Assembly (NCBI GenBank): GCA_013002885.1
Contig: JABDLS010000060.1
Coordinates: 62,001 to 126,000 of the forward strand
Direction: 5' to 3'
Length of the DNA stretch: 64,000 nt
From: Gemmatimonadota bacterium
GTDB taxonomy: Bacteria > Gemmatimonadota > Gemmatimonadetes > Longimicrobiales > Gaopeijiaceae
The notes under the pieces are model-generated. The model was given only the letters and a program-made list of their open reading frames with translations. It was not told the origin of the DNA and searched no databases. Position numbers and translations under genes: made by a program. Below, one piece after another: positions 34,835 through 49,808 of the stretch; position 1 is the first letter of the stretch; every line of letters begins with the position of its first letter.

Positions 34835-36058
34835 TCAATTCTCCGCCAAGCCGGCCACGGCCAGGATCACGTAGAGGGCCCGGACGATGCCGTCCGGGCC
34901 TTTCGTGTTCCGGTACCATTCATCCGTGGTGTGGGCTTTGCCTGCCTCTCCTCCACAACCGAGAGTGATGGCCGGGACGCCACACGCCATCGGTACATTG
35001 GCGTCGGTGGACGAGCGAGCCAGTCGCGGCTCTGTTCCCAACAGCCGCGTCGCCGCCAGGGCCGCCTGGACCAGGGGGTGTCCATCGGCCGTGGCTCCAC
35101 CGGGGCGGTCGCCGATGACGTGCATCTGGTAGTCCAGCTCCCCGCTCTCTGACGCCTCCGCACGCACGACCTTCTCCACCCCAGCCACCAGATTGGCGAG
35201 GGCGTCTTCGTCGGTGCTCCGGCAGTCGATCTCCAGCCAGCTCTCCTGGGGGATCGCATTGATGCTCTTGCCACCACCGAGCCGGGCTACGGTGAGCGTC
35301 GTCCTGGGGTCGGTTGGGAGTTCGAGCGCGGTCAGGCGCGCCCCGAGGGTGACAAGCGCATGGGCGGGGTTGGCAACGCCCCAGTCGACCCACGAGTGAC
35401 CGCCGGCTCCGTGGATGGTGATGCGGAAGCGGCGTGATCCGAGCCCGCGAGACACGATCCGTTCGATGCCGGCCCCGTCGAGGGAGATGAACGCGCTGGC
35501 CACCTGGTCCGCGGGTGTCGGCATGTCCGCGCGGGCGACGACCGCAGGGTCTTTTCCGAAGAGCCCTTTGACACCCCGCAGGTCTCCAGCCCCCTCCTCG
35601 CCGACGGTGGCTACGAAGCGGACGGGTTTCCGGGTTCGGACGTCACCGGCGCCGAAGGCCTGGGCCAAAGCGACGAGCGCGGCGAGCCCTCTTCCGTCGT
35701 CGGAGATGCCTGGTCCGCGGAGAAGGGGTCCTTGTCGGGTGACGGTGACGTCTGTCTCGGCCGGAAAGACGGTGTCGAGGTGGGCCGTCACCATGAGCGG
35801 CGGGACCTGGATTTCCCCCGGGAGGCAAGCCGAGACGTTCCCCGTCTCATCCATCCCCACATCCTGGAGCCCCGCTTCCTGGAGGAGTTGGGCGACGCGC
35901 TTCGCCCGGGCCTCCTCGCCGAAAGGTGGTGCTGGGATCTCCGTCAGCTCGATCTGCGTCTCGAGGGTCGCCTCGTCGCTCTCCTGCAGGACCCGCACGA
36001 GAGCCATGACGTCCGCGCGCTCGGCGATGGCCCTCAAATCGGCCTCCACCATCGACAT
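34835..36058 (-). CDS. M20 family metallopeptidase
   Basis: Zinc-dependent aminoacylase/peptidase, 407 aa. Metal ligands follow the M20 layout: H-x-D in TAHLDTVFP, Asp in GPGISDDGRGLAAL, the Glu-Glu pair in TVGEEGAGDL, and a late His in GKAHTTDEW. The dimerisation domain lies between (HGAGGHSWVDWG). It resembles peptidase T-like tripeptidases. GGAGG lies eight bases before the ATG. That site falls inside the Pho-type repeat of the divergent TonB receptor, so this gene may share regulation. Confidence 0.88.
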   Translation of the reverse strand: MSMVEADLRAIAERADVMALVRVLQESDEATLETQIELTEIPAPPFGEEARAKRVAQLLQEAGLQDVGMDETGNVSACLPGEIQVPPLMVTAHLDTVFPAETDVTVTRQGPLLRGPGISDDGRGLAALVALAQAFGAGDVRTRKPVRFVATVGEEGAGDLRGVKGLFGKDPAVVARADMPTPADQVASAFISLDGAGIERIVSRGLGSRRFRITIHGAGGHSWVDWGVANPAHALVTLGARLTALELPTDPRTTLTVARLGGGKSINAIPQESWLEIDCRSTDEDALANLVAGVEKVVRAEASESGELDYQMHVIGDRPGGATADGHPLVQAALAATRLLGTEPRLARSSTDANVPMACGVPAITLGCGGEAGKAHTTDEWYRNTKGPDGIVRALYVILAVAGLAEN

Positions 36059-36060
36059 GA

Positions 36061-36114
36061 GTTACGCCTCCGTTACCAAGGCCGCCCTTGGCCGTTACGG
36101 ACGGCCGATATGCT
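36061..36114 (+). promoter_or_regulatory. Pho-box-type promoter of the TonB receptor
   Basis: GTTAC words begin at 36061, 36072 and 36094, so they are spaced 11 and 22 bp and occupy an 11-bp register with one degenerate unit at 36083. A -10-like TATGCT (36109-36114) begins 15 bp after the last unit. The same layout stands before pstS, including the 15-bp distance. PhoB binds 11-bp direct repeats that replace the -35 box, so phosphate-starvation control is inferred. The receptor start is 72 bp beyond the -10. Confidence 0.75.
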
Positions 36115-40742: not shown

Positions 40743-41474
40743 GTGAACGACGAAATCGAGGCTTCACCGGTGTCCTCCGTGCTTCACCATACCCGCGCTT
40801 CCTGCGCCGCTCAGCGGACGGCAGAGGAGTTGTGCGGAGGCACCGGCACCTCGTCTCTCGCGAATGACGGCCTCCCCGAGGGGTCGAGGCGGGTCCGGGC
40901 CCGAACCATCTCGGCTTCGTGGCCTGCCGCTTTCGTCTTGGCAGCGGTCGTAGTGGCAGCGACGGCGTGCGGCCTCTCGTCGTCAGACGACCGTGGGGCT
41001 CTTCGCCTTGAGAACGCGATGCCTACCGCGGATGCTCTCGGCGAGCACGTACTCACGGCTCTCTCTCTCCAGGACACCATGGCCCTCGGCATCGTCCGGC
41101 TCACGGAGTCGGAGCACAATGAGATCGTGTGGCCGGAGCTTCCAGCGTCGGCTCCGGAGGTCAACTTCCCCGTGGACTACGCCTGGAAGAACATCCAGAA
41201 CCGGAATGCACGTGGTGTCGGCCGGCTCCTTCCCTTTTTTGCGGACCGCTCGGTGGGATTCCAGAGAGTGGAGTGCAGAGGAGGAGTCGAAGCCTTCGAG
41301 ACGTTCGCGGTCCAGACCGATTGCTTCGTGGTCTTCACCGTCGATGAAGGACCGCAGCTCTGGGAGGCGCAACTCTTCAAAGATCTCCTCGTCCGGGGTG
41401 GGGGGCACAAGATCTTCCGGTACTACGACGAAGAGCCGCGTCCGTACCGAGGACCAGCGGCGACGCACCCGTGA
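40743..41474 (+). CDS. Putative lipoprotein/exported protein after the TonB receptor pair
   Basis: A 243-residue frame from GTG 40743. A hydrophobic segment with a lipobox (FVLAAVVVAATAC) appears only at residues 64-76, so the true start may be a TTG at 40830 or the N-terminus may be an unusually long tail. The C-terminal domain (VRLTESEHNEIVWPELP, FQRVECRGGVEAFETFAV) is unassigned. It lies four bases after the surface lipoprotein stop, so it is likely cotranscribed with the receptor pair. Confidence 0.6.
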   Translation: MNDEIEASPVSSVLHHTRASCAAQRTAEELCGGTGTSSLANDGLPEGSRRVRARTISASWPAAFVLAAVVVAATACGLSSSDDRGALRLENAMPTADALGEHVLTALSLQDTMALGIVRLTESEHNEIVWPELPASAPEVNFPVDYAWKNIQNRNARGVGRLLPFFADRSVGFQRVECRGGVEAFETFAVQTDCFVVFTVDEGPQLWEAQLFKDLLVRGGGHKIFRYYDEEPRPYRGPAATHP

Positions 41475-41570
41475 ACCGACGTACCGGGTGCCGGGGCGAC
41501 ATGACCCCGGCCACCGTCCTCTCTATGTTTAGCGGACCCTCGAGGGGAATCCGCGCCGAGAACGGAGAGC

Positions 41571-42803
41571 ATGGACGAGCAAGCGCTCATTTACGATTGG
41601 AACGAGGCCGACGGGGGCTTCGACTGGGCCTCGCTGGGCGAGATCCAGCTCGACGACGAGACCCTGCGGGACGGTCTCCAGAACCCTTCCGTTGTGGACC
41701 CGTCCATCGAGGACAAGATCCGGCTCCTGCACTATATGGACCGGCTGGGGATCCACACCGCGGACATCGGGCTCCCCGGAGCCGGACCTCGGGCGGTGGA
41801 AGCGGTCACCGCTCTCGCGCAGGAGATCGTCGACTCCGGGCTCTCCATCCAGGCGAACTGCGCCGCGCGCACCGTGGTGGCCGACGTGGAGCCCATCGCC
41901 GAGATCAGCCAGAAGGTGGGTGTGCCCATCGAGGCGTGCACCTTCATCGGGAGCTCGCCCATCCGGCAGTACGCCGAGGACTGGACGCTCACGAAGATGC
42001 TTCGCGTCACCGAGGAGGCGGTGAGCTTCGCCGTTTCCGAGGGCCTGCCGGTCCTCATGGTCACCGAGGACACCACCCGGGCGCATCCGGACACGCTCAA
42101 GGAGCTTTACGGGACGGCCATCCGTTGCGGGGCCCGTCGTCTCTGCATCGCCGACACGGTCGGGCATGCTACGCCCGAGGGCACCCGTGCGCTGGTGCGC
42201 TTCGTCATCGAAGAGATCGTCGAACCGTCCGGAGAGGACGTGGGCGTAGACTGGCATGGTCACCGCGACCGGGGCTTCGGACTGGCCAACGCCATCGCCG
42301 CCATCAAGGCCGGTGCGACACGGGTTCACGGCACGGCACTGGGTATCGGCGAACGCTCCGGCAACACCGAGATGGACCTCCTGCTGGTCAATCTCCAGTT
42401 GCTCGGGATCCACGACGCGGATCTCACCGTTCTCCCGGCCTACTGCGAGTTGGCCGCCGAGGCGTGCCAGATACCGCTGGTCCACTCCTATCCCGTAGTG
42501 GGCGAGGACGCCTTCCGGACGGGTACCGGCGTACACGCGGCGGCCATCGTCAAAGCTCAGGCGAAGGGCGATGCGTGGCTCGCCGACCGGATCTACTCGT
42601 CGGTCCCCGCCTCCATGGTCGGACGGCGGCAAACCATAGAGATCGGACCCATGTCCGGCCTCTCGAATGTGAAGTACTGGCTGGGGGAACGAGGCTACGA
42701 TCCGGAAGACGAGGGGCTGTGCGCTCGCCTCTTCCAAGCAGCCAAACAGACCGATCACACCCTGACCGAGGGGGAGCTGGAAGCACTCTGCACGACCGGC
42801 TGA
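41571..42803 (+). CDS. 2-isopropylmalate/homocitrate synthase-like acyltransferase
   Basis: TIM-barrel aldol-type acyltransferase of the LeuA/NifV superfamily, 410 aa. The metal and product site is DDETLRDGLQ, and the C-terminal ligands lie in DWHGHRDRGFGLANA. The signature GTALGIGERSGNTEMD is of the isopropylmalate/homocitrate synthase group, not HMG-CoA lyase. The enzyme lacks the C-terminal leucine-binding domain of full LeuA (about 500 aa). The usual HxHND reads HGHRD, an unusual Asn to Arg change near the metal. CGGAGAGC before ATG supports the start. Substrate not assignable. Confidence 0.75.
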   Translation: MDEQALIYDWNEADGGFDWASLGEIQLDDETLRDGLQNPSVVDPSIEDKIRLLHYMDRLGIHTADIGLPGAGPRAVEAVTALAQEIVDSGLSIQANCAARTVVADVEPIAEISQKVGVPIEACTFIGSSPIRQYAEDWTLTKMLRVTEEAVSFAVSEGLPVLMVTEDTTRAHPDTLKELYGTAIRCGARRLCIADTVGHATPEGTRALVRFVIEEIVEPSGEDVGVDWHGHRDRGFGLANAIAAIKAGATRVHGTALGIGERSGNTEMDLLLVNLQLLGIHDADLTVLPAYCELAAEACQIPLVHSYPVVGEDAFRTGTGVHAAAIVKAQAKGDAWLADRIYSSVPASMVGRRQTIEIGPMSGLSNVKYWLGERGYDPEDEGLCARLFQAAKQTDHTLTEGELEALCTTG

Positions 42804-42855
42804 CCCTCCAGCTCCCGACGGTCGGAGTCTCCGGCCATCTTGCGGAGGGACACCG

Positions 42856-43614
42856 TTGAGCAGGCTTGCCCAGGAATACATGGAAGCCACCAAGTCGACT
42901 GTCGTGCCGCGGGTCCTCGTCGTCGAGGACGAGCCGGACATCGCCGCCCTGGTGGCATATCAGCTCACCCGAGAGGGCTTCCGGGTCGAGACGACGGGAA
43001 GTGGTACCGAGGCGCTGGACGCAGTGGGTAGGGAGATCCCCGATCTCGTGGTCCTCGATCGGATGCTGCCGGGTCTGAGCGGAGACGACGTCCTCCAGCG
43101 GCTCAAGGCCGACCCGGTGACGTCCCACGTCCCGGTCCTCATGCTGACCGCGAAACGCGAGCAGGAAGACCGCATCCAGGGGCTCGAGCTCGGAGCCGAC
43201 GACTATCTCACGAAGCCGTTCAGCCCACGGGAGCTCGTGCTCCGGGCTCAAGCGATCCTCCGCAGGGTGCAGGAGACGGGGGGGACGCCAGGTGGACGGA
43301 TCCTGAAAGCCGGGCCCATCCGCCTGAACCCCGAATCGCACCGGACGTCCATCGGCGAGGACGAGCTCTCTCTCACGCCCACTGAGTTCCGCCTGCTCCA
43401 GGCACTCATCGAGCGCAGAGGGCGGACGCAAAGCCGCAAGCAGCTGCTGGAGAAGGCGTGGGACATGGAGGCCGGTGTGTCGGACCGCATCCAGACCCGT
43501 ACTGTGGACATGCACGTGCGACGCCTCCGGGCCAAGCTGGGAGAGCTTGGTGACTGGATCCAGACCGTGCGTGGCTTCGGATACCGTCTGAAGGTGCCCG
43601 AGGGCTTGGATTAG
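42856..43614 (+). CDS. phoB: PhoB-type response regulator
   Basis: Two-component regulator, 252 aa. The receiver domain has VVEDEPD, phosphoacceptor D68 in LVVLDRMLP and LTAKRE. An OmpR-type winged-helix DNA-binding domain ends it (LTPTEFRLLQALIERRG, TVDMHVRRLRAKLG, GFGYRLKVP). The TTG at 42856 is chosen because GGAGGG ends six bases before it; an ATG at 42880 is the alternative. phoR follows 23 bp later and pstS after that, so it most likely drives the Pho-type promoters at 36061 and 45432. Confidence 0.9.
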   Translation: MSRLAQEYMEATKSTVVPRVLVVEDEPDIAALVAYQLTREGFRVETTGSGTEALDAVGREIPDLVVLDRMLPGLSGDDVLQRLKADPVTSHVPVLMLTAKREQEDRIQGLELGADDYLTKPFSPRELVLRAQAILRRVQETGGTPGGRILKAGPIRLNPESHRTSIGEDELSLTPTEFRLLQALIERRGRTQSRKQLLEKAWDMEAGVSDRIQTRTVDMHVRRLRAKLGELGDWIQTVRGFGYRLKVPEGLD

Positions 43615-43637
43615 GTCCCCATCATCAGAGGATGCCC

Positions 43638-45368
43638 ATGCGATTGAGGGTCCACCATCCTCTGTTCATCGGTTTCGCTGGTGTGGTGGGCATTCTTGTC
43701 GCCATCATCATCCCGCTCCTGGGGACAGGTCTCAGGGGCGAACTCGATGACGTGTACCGGCAGGAATTGGAGCACCAGCTCGGGCTTGCTCACGCCCTCC
43801 TCGAGGTCTCGGACGCGTCCGACCCGCATGCGCTCGCTCGACTGATCACTGAACGCATCGACAACCGGGTGACCTTCATCACCATGGACGGCACGGTGTT
43901 GGCGGACTCGTATGTGGAGCGCGCGCGGATCCCCACCATCGAGAACCACATCGACCGGCCGGAGGTCCAGGGAGTCCTGGCGGGGGAGACTGTGAGCTTC
44001 TCCAGTCGGACGAGCGCCACCGTGGGTCGATCTCATCTCTACGGTGCTCGGATGGCCACCCTCGGTGGCGAGGCCCTCATCCTCAGAATCGCCACCCCTC
44101 GAAACGAGATCGAGCGCGCCGTCGGCGAGGTTCAGAACACCGTCGCCCTCATCGGGCTGGCGACGCTCGGCCTCGCGCTCATCGCCGCCTATGTGCTCAG
44201 CAAGGCCTTCACGCGACCCTTGGTGGCGCTCGCGGATCGCGCCGGTCGGCTCGCTCACGGTGACTTCACCACGCGGGTGCCCCTTGGCCGGGTAGCCGAG
44301 CTGCAGGACCTCGCCGGTGCCTTCAATCGGCTCACCGAGGAGCTCAGGACGCGTTTGTCGGAGCTGTCTCGTGAACGCGACGAAATGCAGACCCTCATCG
44401 ACTGCATGGCGGAGGGCGTCGTCGCCCTCACGGATGACGCCCGGGTGCTGCGCATGAACCGGGCGGCCCGGAAGCTTCTGGAACTCGACGATGTGCCTGC
44501 CTACGCCCCCGTCAGCTCCGTGGTGCGCGACGGGGCGCTCCGGAGGGCCCTGGAGCGCAGCGTTGTCGTGGAAGGGCAATCGGGGGAGTTGGAGATCGAA
44601 GGGCAACACGTCCTCTGGGCGTCGCGCGCGCTGGACTCGGGTGGCGCCGTGACCACCCTTCTCGACATCACCGAGGTGCGGCACCTCGAGCAGGTACGAA
44701 GGGACTTCGTGGCCAACGCCTCCCACGAGCTCAAGACTCCCCTCACGGCCATCCGCGGCTTCGCGGAGACATTGACCGAGGCGGATCCGCCGGAGCACCT
44801 CCGTCGGCAGTTCCTGGAATCCATTCGCGTGAACACCCTGCGGCTCCAGAGGCTGGTGGACGACCTTCTCGATCTCTCGAGGTTGGAGGCCGGCGGGTGG
44901 GCCGCCGCACTCGAAGAGGTCTACGTCCCGGAGACGGTGGAGGAGGCGAGGGAGCTCATCGAGGTCCCGGAGGGGTCGAAACGGACCCTCATTATCGAAG
45001 GAGAGGCGGTGGTCATGGGTGATCGGGCAGGGCTGGTCCAGGTGTTCCGCAACCTCTTCGAGAATTCCGCACGCCACACTCGGCCAAACGGGACCATCCG
45101 AGTGGTCATCCAGGCGGACGAGGCGTCGGGTGTGGCCCGAATCGAGGTGGTCGACGATGGCGAGGGAATTCCGCTGCGATCGTTGCCGCGGATCTTCGAG
45201 CGCTTCTACCGCGCGGACAGCTCCAGAGCTCGAGAAGTCGGTGGGACGGGGCTCGGGCTCGCCATCGTGAAGCACCTCGTATCAGCCATGGGCGGTGAGG
45301 TCGATGCCCAGAGCGCCCTGGGACGAGGTACAACGATTCGTGTAACGCTTCCGCTAGCGGCGCCTTGA
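43638..45368 (+). CDS. phoR: PhoR-type sensor histidine kinase
   Basis: Membrane kinase, 576 aa from ATG 43638, chosen because AGAGG lies six bases upstream; an ATG at 43632 is the alternative. Layout: TM1 (FIGFAGVVGILVAIIIPLL), a periplasmic domain of about 130 residues, TM2 (VALIGLATLGLALIAAYVL), HAMP, PAS, HisKA with H363 in VANASHELKTPL, then HATPase with NLFENSARHT and GGTGLGLAIVKHL. PhoR kinases sense PstSCAB-PhoU rather than phosphate directly. The gene follows phoB. Confidence 0.9.
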   Translation: MRLRVHHPLFIGFAGVVGILVAIIIPLLGTGLRGELDDVYRQELEHQLGLAHALLEVSDASDPHALARLITERIDNRVTFITMDGTVLADSYVERARIPTIENHIDRPEVQGVLAGETVSFSSRTSATVGRSHLYGARMATLGGEALILRIATPRNEIERAVGEVQNTVALIGLATLGLALIAAYVLSKAFTRPLVALADRAGRLAHGDFTTRVPLGRVAELQDLAGAFNRLTEELRTRLSELSRERDEMQTLIDCMAEGVVALTDDARVLRMNRAARKLLELDDVPAYAPVSSVVRDGALRRALERSVVVEGQSGELEIEGQHVLWASRALDSGGAVTTLLDITEVRHLEQVRRDFVANASHELKTPLTAIRGFAETLTEADPPEHLRRQFLESIRVNTLRLQRLVDDLLDLSRLEAGGWAAALEEVYVPETVEEARELIEVPEGSKRTLIIEGEAVVMGDRAGLVQVFRNLFENSARHTRPNGTIRVVIQADEASGVARIEVVDDGEGIPLRSLPRIFERFYRADSSRAREVGGTGLGLAIVKHLVSAMGGEVDAQSALGRGTTIRVTLPLAAP

Positions 45369-45431: not shown

Positions 45432-45485
45432 GTTACCTATCTGTTACAATTTCGTCTCTCTTCTGTTGCCTGGTTCCTCTACGCT
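45432..45485 (+). promoter_or_regulatory. Pho-box promoter of the pst operon
   Basis: Four units GTTAC, GTTAC, GTCTC and GTTGC begin at 45432, 45443, 45454 and 45465, exactly 11 bp apart. TACGCT (45480-45485) starts 15 bp after the last unit and acts as -10. This is the expected PhoB site: direct 11-bp repeats in place of the -35 box. The pstS ATG is 43 bp beyond the -10. Confidence 0.85.
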
Positions 45486-45527: not shown

Positions 45528-46472
45528 ATGAAGCGCTTTTCCTCTCTTCCGATTCCCGTGGCTACCGCCCTGCTTGCCTTTGGCGCATGCGGCGGAGACG
45601 CCGGTGGCGATGGCACCTCCTTGGCGGGCGCCGTTCAGATCGATGGATCGAGCACGGTCTTCCCCATTGCCGAGGCGGTGGCCGAGGAGTTCCAGATCGC
45701 CAATCCCGACGTTCGTGTCACGGTTGGCGTTTCGGGTTCCGGTGGCGGGTTCGAGCGGTTTTGTAACGGCGAGACTGATCTCTCCAACGCGTCGCGGCCC
45801 ATCCGGGAGTCCGAGGTCGAGGAATGCCACGCAGCCGGCGTCGAGTTCACCGAGCTGTCGGTGGCTTGGGACGGCCTTTCCGTCATCGTGAACCCCGCGA
45901 ACGACTTTACCCAATGCCTGAGCGTCGAAGAGCTCCGCCGGATCTGGGCTCCTGATGGCGGCGTGAGCACCTGGAGCGATGTCCGGACCGAATGGCCGGA
46001 CGAGGAAATCCGCCTCTATGGTCCAGGTACGGATTCAGGCACCTTCGACTACTTCACCGAGACCATCCTCGGGGAAAGTGGTGCCAGCCGCCCCGACTTC
46101 CAGGCCAGTGAGGATGACAACATCCTCGTCCAGGGCGTCTCGGGTGACCGTTACTCGCTGGGCTACTTCGGCTATGCGTACTACGCCGAAAACCAGGATC
46201 GGTTGAAGCTCCTCGAGATCGATGGTGGGGCCGGATGCGTGGCTCCCTCGGACGATACCATCGAAGACGGGACATACGCGCCCCTCGCCCGCCCCCTTTT
46301 CGTCTACGTGAAGCACTCGGCTCTGCAGCGTCCCGAAGTGCGTGCGTATGTGGACTTCATGCTATCCGAGGCGGCCATGCTCGTGCCGGCGACCGGCTAC
46401 CATGCCCTGTCGGAGGCCCAGTACCAGGAAGGCCTCGCCATGATCGCCGAGGCCGTGAGTGGCACCGACTGA
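45528..46472 (+). CDS. pstS: Phosphate-binding protein
   Basis: High-affinity phosphate-binding lipoprotein of the Pst ABC system, 314 aa. The signal ends LLAFGACGG (lipobox). The phosphate-binding loops are present: [10 protein letters not shown] near the N-terminus, [22 protein letters not shown], and [12 protein letters not shown]. It overlaps pstC by 14 bases. Confidence 0.93.
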
Positions 46473-47436
46473 ACGAACCGACGGATCGGAGGACCTAGGG
46501 GCGACCGGGCGCGATCCGGTCGCCCCTACCGTCGTGTCGGGACTGGGCTTTCAGCGCACGAAGAACGTCCAGGAGCGGATCATTGGCGGCGTCCTGTTTT
46601 CGTGTGCGGCCATCTCCACTCTGGTCACGGTGGGCGTTGTGGTCGTTCTCCTTCGGGAGAGCCTGATCTTCTTCTCCAACGTGCCCGTCTGGGAGTTCCT
46701 GACCGGCACCCGGTGGCAGCCTGCGTTCACCCCTCAGCGCTTCGGTGTGCTGCCTCTTCTGGCCGGCTCGGTGATGGTGGCCGTCGGTTCGGCCATCATC
46801 GCCCTGCCCTTGGGTCTGATGACGGCCATCTTCCTCAGCGAGTACGCTGGACAGAGGCTGCGGGGCATCCTCAAGCCCGTACTCGAGATCCTCGCGGGCA
46901 TCCCGACGGTGGTGTACGGCTACTTTGCCCTCACCTTCATTACGCCGCTTCTCCGGCAGTTCGTGCCGGAGACGGATGTTTTCAATGCTGCGGCCGCGAG
47001 CATCGTCGTGGGAATCATGATCATTCCCACGGTCTCGTCGCTGTCCGAGGACGCCCTGCGGGCAGTGCCCCGTGCCCTTCGCGAGGGAGCTTATGGTCTG
47101 GGGGCGACAAAGCTGGAGGTGTCGACCAAGGTCGTGGTCCCGGCCGCCCTCTCAGGGGTCTTCGCTTCGTTCATCCTGGCCGTTTCACGGGCCATCGGTG
47201 AGACGATGGCGGTGACCATCGCCGCGGGTAACCTTCCGAACCTGACCCTGAATCCACTCGAGTCCATCCAGACCATGACTGCGTATATCGTGTCGGTGAG
47301 CCTCGGCGACACGCCTCAGGGTACGGTGGCCTATCAGACGCTGTTCGCGGTGGGCATGACCCTGTTCATCATCACGCTGGGCATGAACATCCTTAGCCAA
47401 TGGGTCCTCTCCCGCTTCCGCGAGGAGTATCAGTGA
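46459..47436 (+). CDS. pstC: Phosphate ABC transporter permease
   Basis: Inner-membrane permease, 325 aa with six hydrophobic helices. The ABC-permease EAA loop is [24 protein letters not shown], and [15 protein letters not shown] is typical of PstC. The GTG at 46459 overlaps pstS by 14 bases; the first 40 or so residues are polar and may be partly non-native. The stop overlaps pstA (GTGA). Confidence 0.92.
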
Positions 47437-48317
47437 GCGCTGGAGATTGGCTCACCGGTAGCGATGCGGCCTTCGACCGCCGCCGGAAGCTGAAGGGCGC
47501 GGTCTTCGCGGGGGCGTGTGGCGCGGCCACCCTCGTCGGCGTGGTGTCTTTGGGAGTTTTGTTGGTCGACGTGATCATCGACGGGATCGCTAGCCTCGAC
47601 TGGCGATTCGTGACCGCCCTCCCGTCTCGCTTCCCGGAGCGCGCCGGCATCAAGGTGGCCCTCGCGGGATCGGTGTGGATCCTGGTGCTGACGGCCCTTA
47701 TCTCGTTTCCGCTCTCGGTGGCCGCTGCCATCTACCTCGAGGAGTACGCGAATCGTGGCTGGGTCAGCAAGACGATTCAGACCAACATCGCCAACCTCGC
47801 CGGTGTGCCCTCCATCGTGTACGGGATTCTGGGACTAGCGCTCTTCGTGCGGGGACTCGGGCTGGGTCGGAGCGTGCTTTCCGGAGCGCTGACGCTGTCC
47901 CTCCTCATCATGCCGGTGATCATCATTGCGGCTCAGGAAGCGATCCGCGCGGTTCCGCCCACCATCCGTGAGGCGGCTTACGGGTTGGGTGCGACCCGGT
48001 GGCAGGTGGTGAGCCGACAGGTGCTTCCCATGGCTCTCCCCGGGATTCTCACCGGGACCATCCTGGCGCTATCCAGAGCGGTCGGGGAGACGGCGCCGCT
48101 CATCATGGTAGGCGCGGTGGGTTTCATCGCCTTCACCCCAGAGGGTCCGATGTCGCCTTTCACCGTGCTTCCTCTCCAGATCTACCAGTGGGTTTCGCGG
48201 CCGCAGGACGAGTTTCGCGCCATCGCAGCGGCGGGAATCATCGTCCTCCTCCTGCTTCTCCTCTCCATGAATGCGGTCGCCATCGTGCTTCGGAACCGCT
48301 ACAGCTCAAAGACCTGA
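47433..48317 (+). CDS. pstA: Phosphate ABC transporter permease
   Basis: Second inner-membrane permease, 294 aa, six helices. The EAA loop is [24 protein letters not shown], followed by [15 protein letters not shown], as in PstA. The GTG overlaps the pstC stop by four bases; a frame extension to 47400 lies in pstC and is rejected. Confidence 0.92.
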
Positions 48318-48321
48318 CTCG

Positions 48322-49104
48322 ATGTCCACCACCTACGGCATAACGATCGGGAGCGACGGCCCCGCCCTCGAGGTTCGGGACGTGAACGTCCACTATGGCT
48401 CGAAGCAGGCCATCGACGGCGTGTCCCTCACGGTCCCCAAGAAGAAGGTGGTCGCTCTCATCGGACCCTCCGGGTGTGGCAAGAGCACTCTTTTGCGGTG
48501 CTTCAACCGAATGAACGACTTGGTGCCCAGCGCGCGGGTGGATGGGCTCATCGAGTTCCGCGGGCACGACCTGTACGCGCCCGACGTCGATCCGGTGGAG
48601 GTCCGTCGCCGGATCGGCATGGTGTTCCAGAAGCCGAACCCTTTCCCCAAGTCCATCTACGAGAACGTCGCCTTCGGCCCGAAGATCAACGGCTTCCGGG
48701 GCGACCTCGACGAGTTGGTGGAGACGTCCCTCCGCCAGGCGGCTCTATGGGATGAAGTCAGCGATCGTCTTGGCGACTCGGCGTACGCCCTCTCTGGTGG
48801 ACAGCAGCAGAGGCTCTGCATAGCCCGTACACTGGCTGTCAAGCCCGAGCTCGTCCTCATGGATGAGCCCGCGTCAGCCCTCGATCCCATCGCCACACAG
48901 AAGATCGAGGAACTCATCTACGAGCTTAAGGAGCAGTACACCATCGTTATCGTGACCCATAACATGCAGCAGGCCGCGCGAATTTCGGATTACACGGCCT
49001 TCCTCTACATGGGCAAGCTCATCGAGTACGGCCCCACCGACACCATCTTCACCAATCCGCGTGAGGAGCGTACGGAGGCATACGTCACCGGGAGGTTCGG
49101 TTGA
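48322..49104 (+). CDS. pstB: Phosphate ABC transporter ATPase
   Basis: ATPase of the Pst system, 260 aa. Walker [10 protein letters not shown], signature LSGGQQQR, Walker [14 protein letters not shown], and the H-loop [29 protein letters not shown] and [19 protein letters not shown] are PstB-specific. The ATG at 48322 is four bases after the pstA stop. The stop overlaps phoU by four bases. Confidence 0.95.
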
Positions 49105-49808
49105 ACACAGAACACGCACGCCGCCGGCACTTCCATCAGGAGCTGGACACGCTTCAGGAGCGCCTCCTGGAGATGGCCACCCTCGTCGAGCATGCCTTGG
49201 CCGACGCCACCAGGGCCGTCCTCGACCGGGACCCGACGCAGGGAGACATCCTGCGCGACGCCGACGAACGCATCGACGAGCTGGAAGTCGAGATCGATGA
49301 GCGCGTCGTCGAGCTGCTGGCCCTCCAGCAGCCCATGGCGTCGGATCTCCGCCAGATCATTGCGACCAACAAGGTCTCAAACGACCTGGAGCGCATCGCA
49401 GACCATGCCGTGAACATCGCTCGGGCGGTGGCGCGACTTGCCGACGCGCCACCAATGGAGAAGCTCCGCGAGATCGAGGAGATGATCGAGCTCACCCGGG
49501 GCATGGTGTCGGACGCTCTGGCCGCCTACGTGTCACGAAACGCCGGCACCGCGCGAATGGTGTGTTTGACGGACGACCGAGTGGATGACCTCAAGCGGTC
49601 GGTGTTCCGCATCGTGGTCACGCACATGTTGGAGGACCCGAAGCGAATCGGAGCCGCTCTGGAGCTGCTTCTCATTTCTCAGAACCTCGAGCGGACAGCC
49701 GATCTGGCTACGAACATCTGTGAAGACGTGGTCTTCCTCGTAGAAGGGCGCTCCATCAAACACGGCCTGGATATCGACGAGGATGACGACGAGACCGAGC
49801 ACCGCTGA
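49101..49808 (+). CDS. phoU: Phosphate signalling regulator
   Basis: Negative regulator linking PstSCAB to PhoR, 235 aa, two three-helix bundles. Metal-binding acidic motifs are present ([12 protein letters not shown]-type in the first half; [13 protein letters not shown] in the second), with [14 protein letters not shown] and [18 protein letters not shown]. The TTG at 49101 lies in the pstB stop (TTGA). It closes the pst operon. Confidence 0.93.

Follow-up and report, generated by a model that had tools for sequence, protein, structure and literature searches.

Phosphorus is generally taken to enter through the outer membrane by way of porins. The 64,000-nucleotide stretch of Gemmatimonadota DNA analysed here, referred to as the window, carries an array of short direct repeats just upstream of a gene for a TonB-dependent receptor, which raises the question of whether this receptor is under phosphate control and, if so, what it would import. 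The first-pass annotation had noted GTTAC copies at the receptor promoter and GTT/GTC-type units at the pst promoter, both in an exact 11-bp register. It had also noted a −10 hexamer beginning 15 bp downstream of the final unit of each array, and had read the receptor site as a Pho box. Both arrays and their hexamers are where that annotation placed them, to the base (Table 1).

The receptor promoter has GTTAC copies beginning at 36061, 36072 and 36094. The unit at 36083 has no GTTAC match, so that three of the four units are good. The four units of the pst promoter are GTTAC at 45432, GTTAC at 45443, GTCTC at 45454 and GTTGC at 45465. In both promoters the hexamer starts 15 bp past the last unit and 48 bp past the first. 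The marks of a Pho box, direct repeats every 11 bp and a fixed distance to a −10 element without a −35, are thus both found at the receptor site, and a search of this promoter region for a sigma-70 −35/−10 pair returned none. A perfect inverted repeat at 36076–36091, CCAAGG-CCGC-CCTTGG, covers the degenerate third unit; it is not obviously kept in relatives.

Table 1. Features of the receptor-phoBR-pst region, in window coordinates.
Feature	Position	Strand	Remarks
Divergent M20-family peptidase	34835–36058	−	Shine-Dalgarno overlaps Pho box
Receptor Pho box	36061–36098	+	Units 36061, 36072, (36083 degenerate), 36094
Receptor −10 hexamer TATGCT	36109–36114	+	Starts 15 bp after last-unit start
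TonB-dependent receptor, 948 aa	36186–39032	+	Carboxypeptidase-regulatory domain, Plug, OMP_b-brl_3
Lipoprotein, 531 aa	39143–40738	+	Lipobox, fn3 domain, predicted ElpS-type domain (residues 115–528)
Conserved protein	40743–41474	+	True start probably near 40893, lipoprotein-like signal
HMGL-like enzyme, isopropylmalate/homocitrate-synthase-like	41571–42803	+	
phoB response regulator	42856–43614	+	
phoR sensor kinase	43632–45368	+	
pst Pho box	45432–45469	+	Four units, 11-bp register
pst −10 hexamer TACGCT	45480–45485	+	15 bp after last unit
pstS	45528–46472	+	
pstC	46459–47436	+	
pstA	47400–48317	+	
pstB	48271–49104	+	
phoU	49101–49808	+	

The architecture closely matches that of the E. coli pstS promoter, found just upstream of E. 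coli pstS, in which units at positions 2, 13, about 24 (degenerate) and 35 are followed by a −10 at 50. The 11-bp register, the degenerate third unit and the 15-bp and 48-bp distances to the −10 are common to the two. They differ in the unit, which is GTTAC here and GTCAT or GTCAC in E. coli, and in the gene that follows the four-unit box, which is the TonB receptor gene here and pstS in E. coli.

The exact pattern GTTAC-N6-GTTAC occurs three times in the 4,006,981 bases of the genome, compared with once for the reversed-pattern control. All three matches lie ahead of phosphate genes, namely those for the TonB receptor, PstS and a Na/Pi cotransporter, the last with its site 73 bp upstream of the gene start. 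When one mismatch was allowed, 24 matches were found against 42 in the control, which is the background level. It follows that weaker sites cannot be called by a genome scan, so the one-mismatch scan was rejected as a means of defining the regulon, and that the strength of the genomic evidence lies in the exact matches and their positions. The genome encodes 11 further TonB receptors, and over about 4.5 kb upstream of their genes neither exact nor one-mismatch sites are present. A search of the receptor-phoBR-pst cluster for a phosphatase or phosphonatase gene found none; one PhoD and one PhoX are encoded elsewhere in the genome, both without exact Pho boxes. Upstream of the PhoD gene (L143:948–1020), weak units GTGAC, GGTAC and GCTAC are spaced in an 11-bp register, and TACCTT follows GGTAC at 48 bp; these may represent a degenerate Pho box.

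Conservation of the repeats in related genomes, on which the first-pass annotation had made its reading depend, was found. A search of 148 genomes for the receptor supplied the 30 best matches, including the window's own, and for each of these up to 330 bp of upstream sequence was scanned, with regions oriented by contig strand and significance judged against dinucleotide shuffles. The motif was significant in 21 of the 30 upstream regions and in none of 30 equal in-gene stretches used as controls; the regions are kin by descent, and these counts are not independent events. In the pooled regions, GTTAC lies on the coding strand 63 times and on the opposite strand 12 times, and the spacing from one GTTAC to another is mainly 11, 22, 33 or 44 bp, with a minor class at 23 and 34. 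The pattern TANNNT follows GTTAC at 15 bp in 15 cases and at 37 bp in 14, and no other offset between 5 and 44 occurs more than three times. In almost all receptor promoters the third unit is the degenerate one. Four loci outside the 21 (L005, L009, L010 and L011) keep the GTTAC pair with the third copy shifted onward by one or two bases, and some receptor homologues, for example L015, L018 and L027, have no fixed-register motif. Exact matches in 20 relatives stand before the receptor in 10 of the 20, and others stand before pstS, phoB or an OprP-type porin; the scan upstream of pstS in relatives is informative for plus-strand loci only. Some 200 bp ahead of the receptor gene at L006 and L007 (G084 and G056), GTTAC recurs as a roughly 22-bp tandem array, with a CCTAT-like stretch behind every copy; this is apparently an amplified Pho-box array.

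The surroundings of the receptor gene are also those of a phosphate locus. The receptor, the lipoprotein, a small conserved protein, an HMGL-like enzyme, phoB and phoR form a run on one strand, and a second Pho box and pstSCAB-phoU come next. The best match of the window's PhoB is the PhoB equivalog profile, at 240 bits and under the 296-bit cut-off, and its gene adjoins phoR and pst. That a cognate PhoB-PhoR pair is encoded in the same gene run as the receptor is a point that the first-pass annotation had not made. Terminator-like sites sought on the + strand between 36186 and 45368 were not found, and the receptor gene apparently heads one operon that ends in phoB-phoR. If the receptor site is read as the promoter of this operon, PhoBR would be autoregulated as well. 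Relatives keep the order receptor, lipoprotein, small protein, (HMGL), phoB, (phoR), and in many of them pst lies downstream. In close relatives the HMGL-like gene separates phoB from the receptor group, and others lack it; an open reading frame at 41471–42859 was rejected as a gene, being a shadow frame of the HMGL-like gene. Conservation, genome-wide specificity, the match to E. coli pstS and the synteny with phoBR-pst together uphold the Pho-box reading, and we consider it highly likely that the segment 36061–36114 is a promoter of the E. coli pstS type under activation by PhoB, to which PhoB would bind and from which transcription would be induced at low phosphate.

What kind of receptor would this promoter serve? 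The nearest NCBIfam model of the receptor is TIGR01782, with a score under the cut-off, and against the SusC-type model TIGR04056 it reaches 32 bits against 368. The first-pass annotation had described a surface lipoprotein as its partner; the lipoprotein is real, and its identity is ElpS-like, not SusD-like. A SusD assignment was rejected, since the family match is to fn3 only and to no SusD family, and the pair therefore lacks the SusD-family partner and SusC-type receptor of a SusCD/PusCD system. Comparison of the lipoprotein profile with solved structures returned fn3 domains only, and the predicted structures are poor (mean pLDDT 48.5 for the lipoprotein and 35.8 for the receptor). Proteobacteria and Bacteroidota plasmid records also show the large domain of the lipoprotein next to TonB receptors. 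Homologues of the lipoprotein (34%) and the receptor (31%) form a pair on a plasmid of the alphaproteobacterium Indioceanicola, beside gspN/D/E/F. In this the plasmid resembles Caulobacter, where the pair CC0170 (ElpS) and CC0171 is likewise described as preceding type II secretion genes (PMC2996285). Judged by its homology, the lipoprotein partner is of the ElpS type, an assignment made through the Indioceanicola protein in the ElpS position, with CC0170 and Fjoh_0546 known by description.

The closest counterpart is the phoBR operon, or PUSIV, of Flavobacterium johnsoniae (Fjoh_0541–0549). According to PMC8115612, this operon contains a TonB transporter and a lipoprotein, FII, reported to be related to Caulobacter ElpS, both of them strongly induced by phosphate depletion, as seen in the transcriptome and the proteome. 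The elements of the PUSIV type are found here: a receptor with Plug, CarbopepD_reg and OMP_b-brl_3 domains, an adjacent lipoprotein of predicted ElpS type and adjacent phoBR. The Pfam set is that given for the F. johnsoniae transporter (pf07715, pf13715, pf14905), and phoBR adjoins both pairs, the F. johnsoniae proteins (Fjoh_0545/Fjoh_0546) being likened by description only. There are differences, as follows. F. johnsoniae belongs to the Bacteroidetes, its gene order is another, and it has OprP beside phoR; the present cluster runs on into pstSCAB-phoU, whereas the portion available of that report describes no pst box for F. johnsoniae (PMC8115612). In Caulobacter crescentus, elpS is Pi-induced and cc0171 is reported to be constitutive; type II secretion genes adjoin that pair, with no phoBR or pst as described, and the reverse holds here (PMC2996285). 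Several Caulobacter TonB receptors are under PhoB control, and these, unlike the present one, are not described as lying within a phoBR-pst cluster in the available part of PMC11208175. A little-described role for a TonB system, as the first-pass annotation put it, is a fair statement, but the role is not undescribed: Pi-regulated TonB receptors, or the lipoproteins that partner them, have been reported (PMC8115612, PMC11208175, PMC2996285). In the open-licence literature, no paper on Pho-regulated TonB receptors in Gemmatimonadota was found. Gemmatimonadota is the phylum of the two closest named relatives, and a third match lies in a MAG labelled Gammaproteobacteria. By domain content and gene neighbourhood, the cluster is a Gemmatimonadota member of the kind known from Flavobacterium.

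The promoter may be that of the receptor gene without the receptor being there for phosphorus. The Pho box might serve mainly the autoregulation of phoBR, with the receptor and lipoprotein as passengers that handle a non-phosphorus substrate such as peptides or glycans. The placing of receptor, lipoprotein and phoBR in a single run lacking + strand terminators would suit this, as would the presence of an M20 peptidase gene divergent from the receptor in several relatives. So would the exchange of receptors at one position: within one family, the slot upstream of phoB holds one receptor/lipoprotein lineage at L064 and L066 and another at L077 and L079, with 62–71% and about 36% identity, respectively, to the window's receptor, and the Pho box is kept. 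This swap may represent an exchange of substrate specificity. However, G080 has phoBR-pst in divergent orientation to the receptor gene, with an exact box for phoB on that gene's strand and a weaker set of repeats on the strand of the receptor. In F. johnsoniae, moreover, induction of the equivalent receptor and lipoprotein greatly exceeds that of phoB and of phoR (Table 1 of PMC8115612). Passenger status of the pair is thus unlikely, in our estimate.

That the site serves primarily to control the divergent M20 peptidase gene, by occluding the region where ribosomes bind, is a good deal less probable still. The first two repeats lie on either side of the peptidase Shine-Dalgarno sequence, GGAGG on the minus strand at 36067–36071, and run partly into it, but the repeat orientation and the −10 spacing point to the receptor, and in G013 the box is about 100 bp from the peptidase gene. 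Chance resemblance, or a site for another OmpR-family regulator, would be favoured by the shortness of GTTAC and the background level of one-mismatch sites, yet it is hardly credible given that exact pairs are rare and all ahead of phosphate genes and that the register and the −10 distance are strongly conserved in relatives.

We therefore return to PhoB activation of the receptor operon, for which we propose the following course. PhoB dimers on the 11-bp repeats of the 36061–36114 site would replace the −35 element, the receptor box driving six genes (receptor, ElpS-type lipoprotein, small protein, HMGL-like enzyme, phoB and phoR) and the box at 45432 driving pstSCAB-phoU. On phosphate starvation, the receptor/lipoprotein pair would be made, PhoBR would be amplified by autoregulation and the high-affinity phosphate pump would be produced. 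The receptor and lipoprotein would capture a phosphorus-containing ligand, with phosphate released or delivered to the periplasm for PstS. When phosphate is exhausted, then, the receptor is very probably produced. We infer, as did the first-pass annotation in naming phosphate, phosphonate or an organophosphate, that it probably imports a phosphorus ligand; import of phosphate itself is considerably less probable. It is tempting to go further and propose a TonB-energised importer, of phosphate or of a phosphate ligand captured by the ElpS-type lipoprotein, that is wired into the PhoBR-Pst system, the lineage swap at a kept Pho box suggesting differing phosphorus ligands. This fuller picture is put forward tentatively, as a possibility well short of probable.

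The locus provides a Pho-box model for regulon searches in Gemmatimonadota, GTTAC-N6-GTTAC-N17-GTTAC-N10-TANNNT, and offers a named receptor/lipoprotein pair for ligand tests. A TonB receptor predicted to be phosphate-regulated, within a phoBR-pst cluster and in a phylum beyond the Bacteroidetes and Caulobacter, suggests that energised capture of phosphorus at the outer membrane may be widespread.
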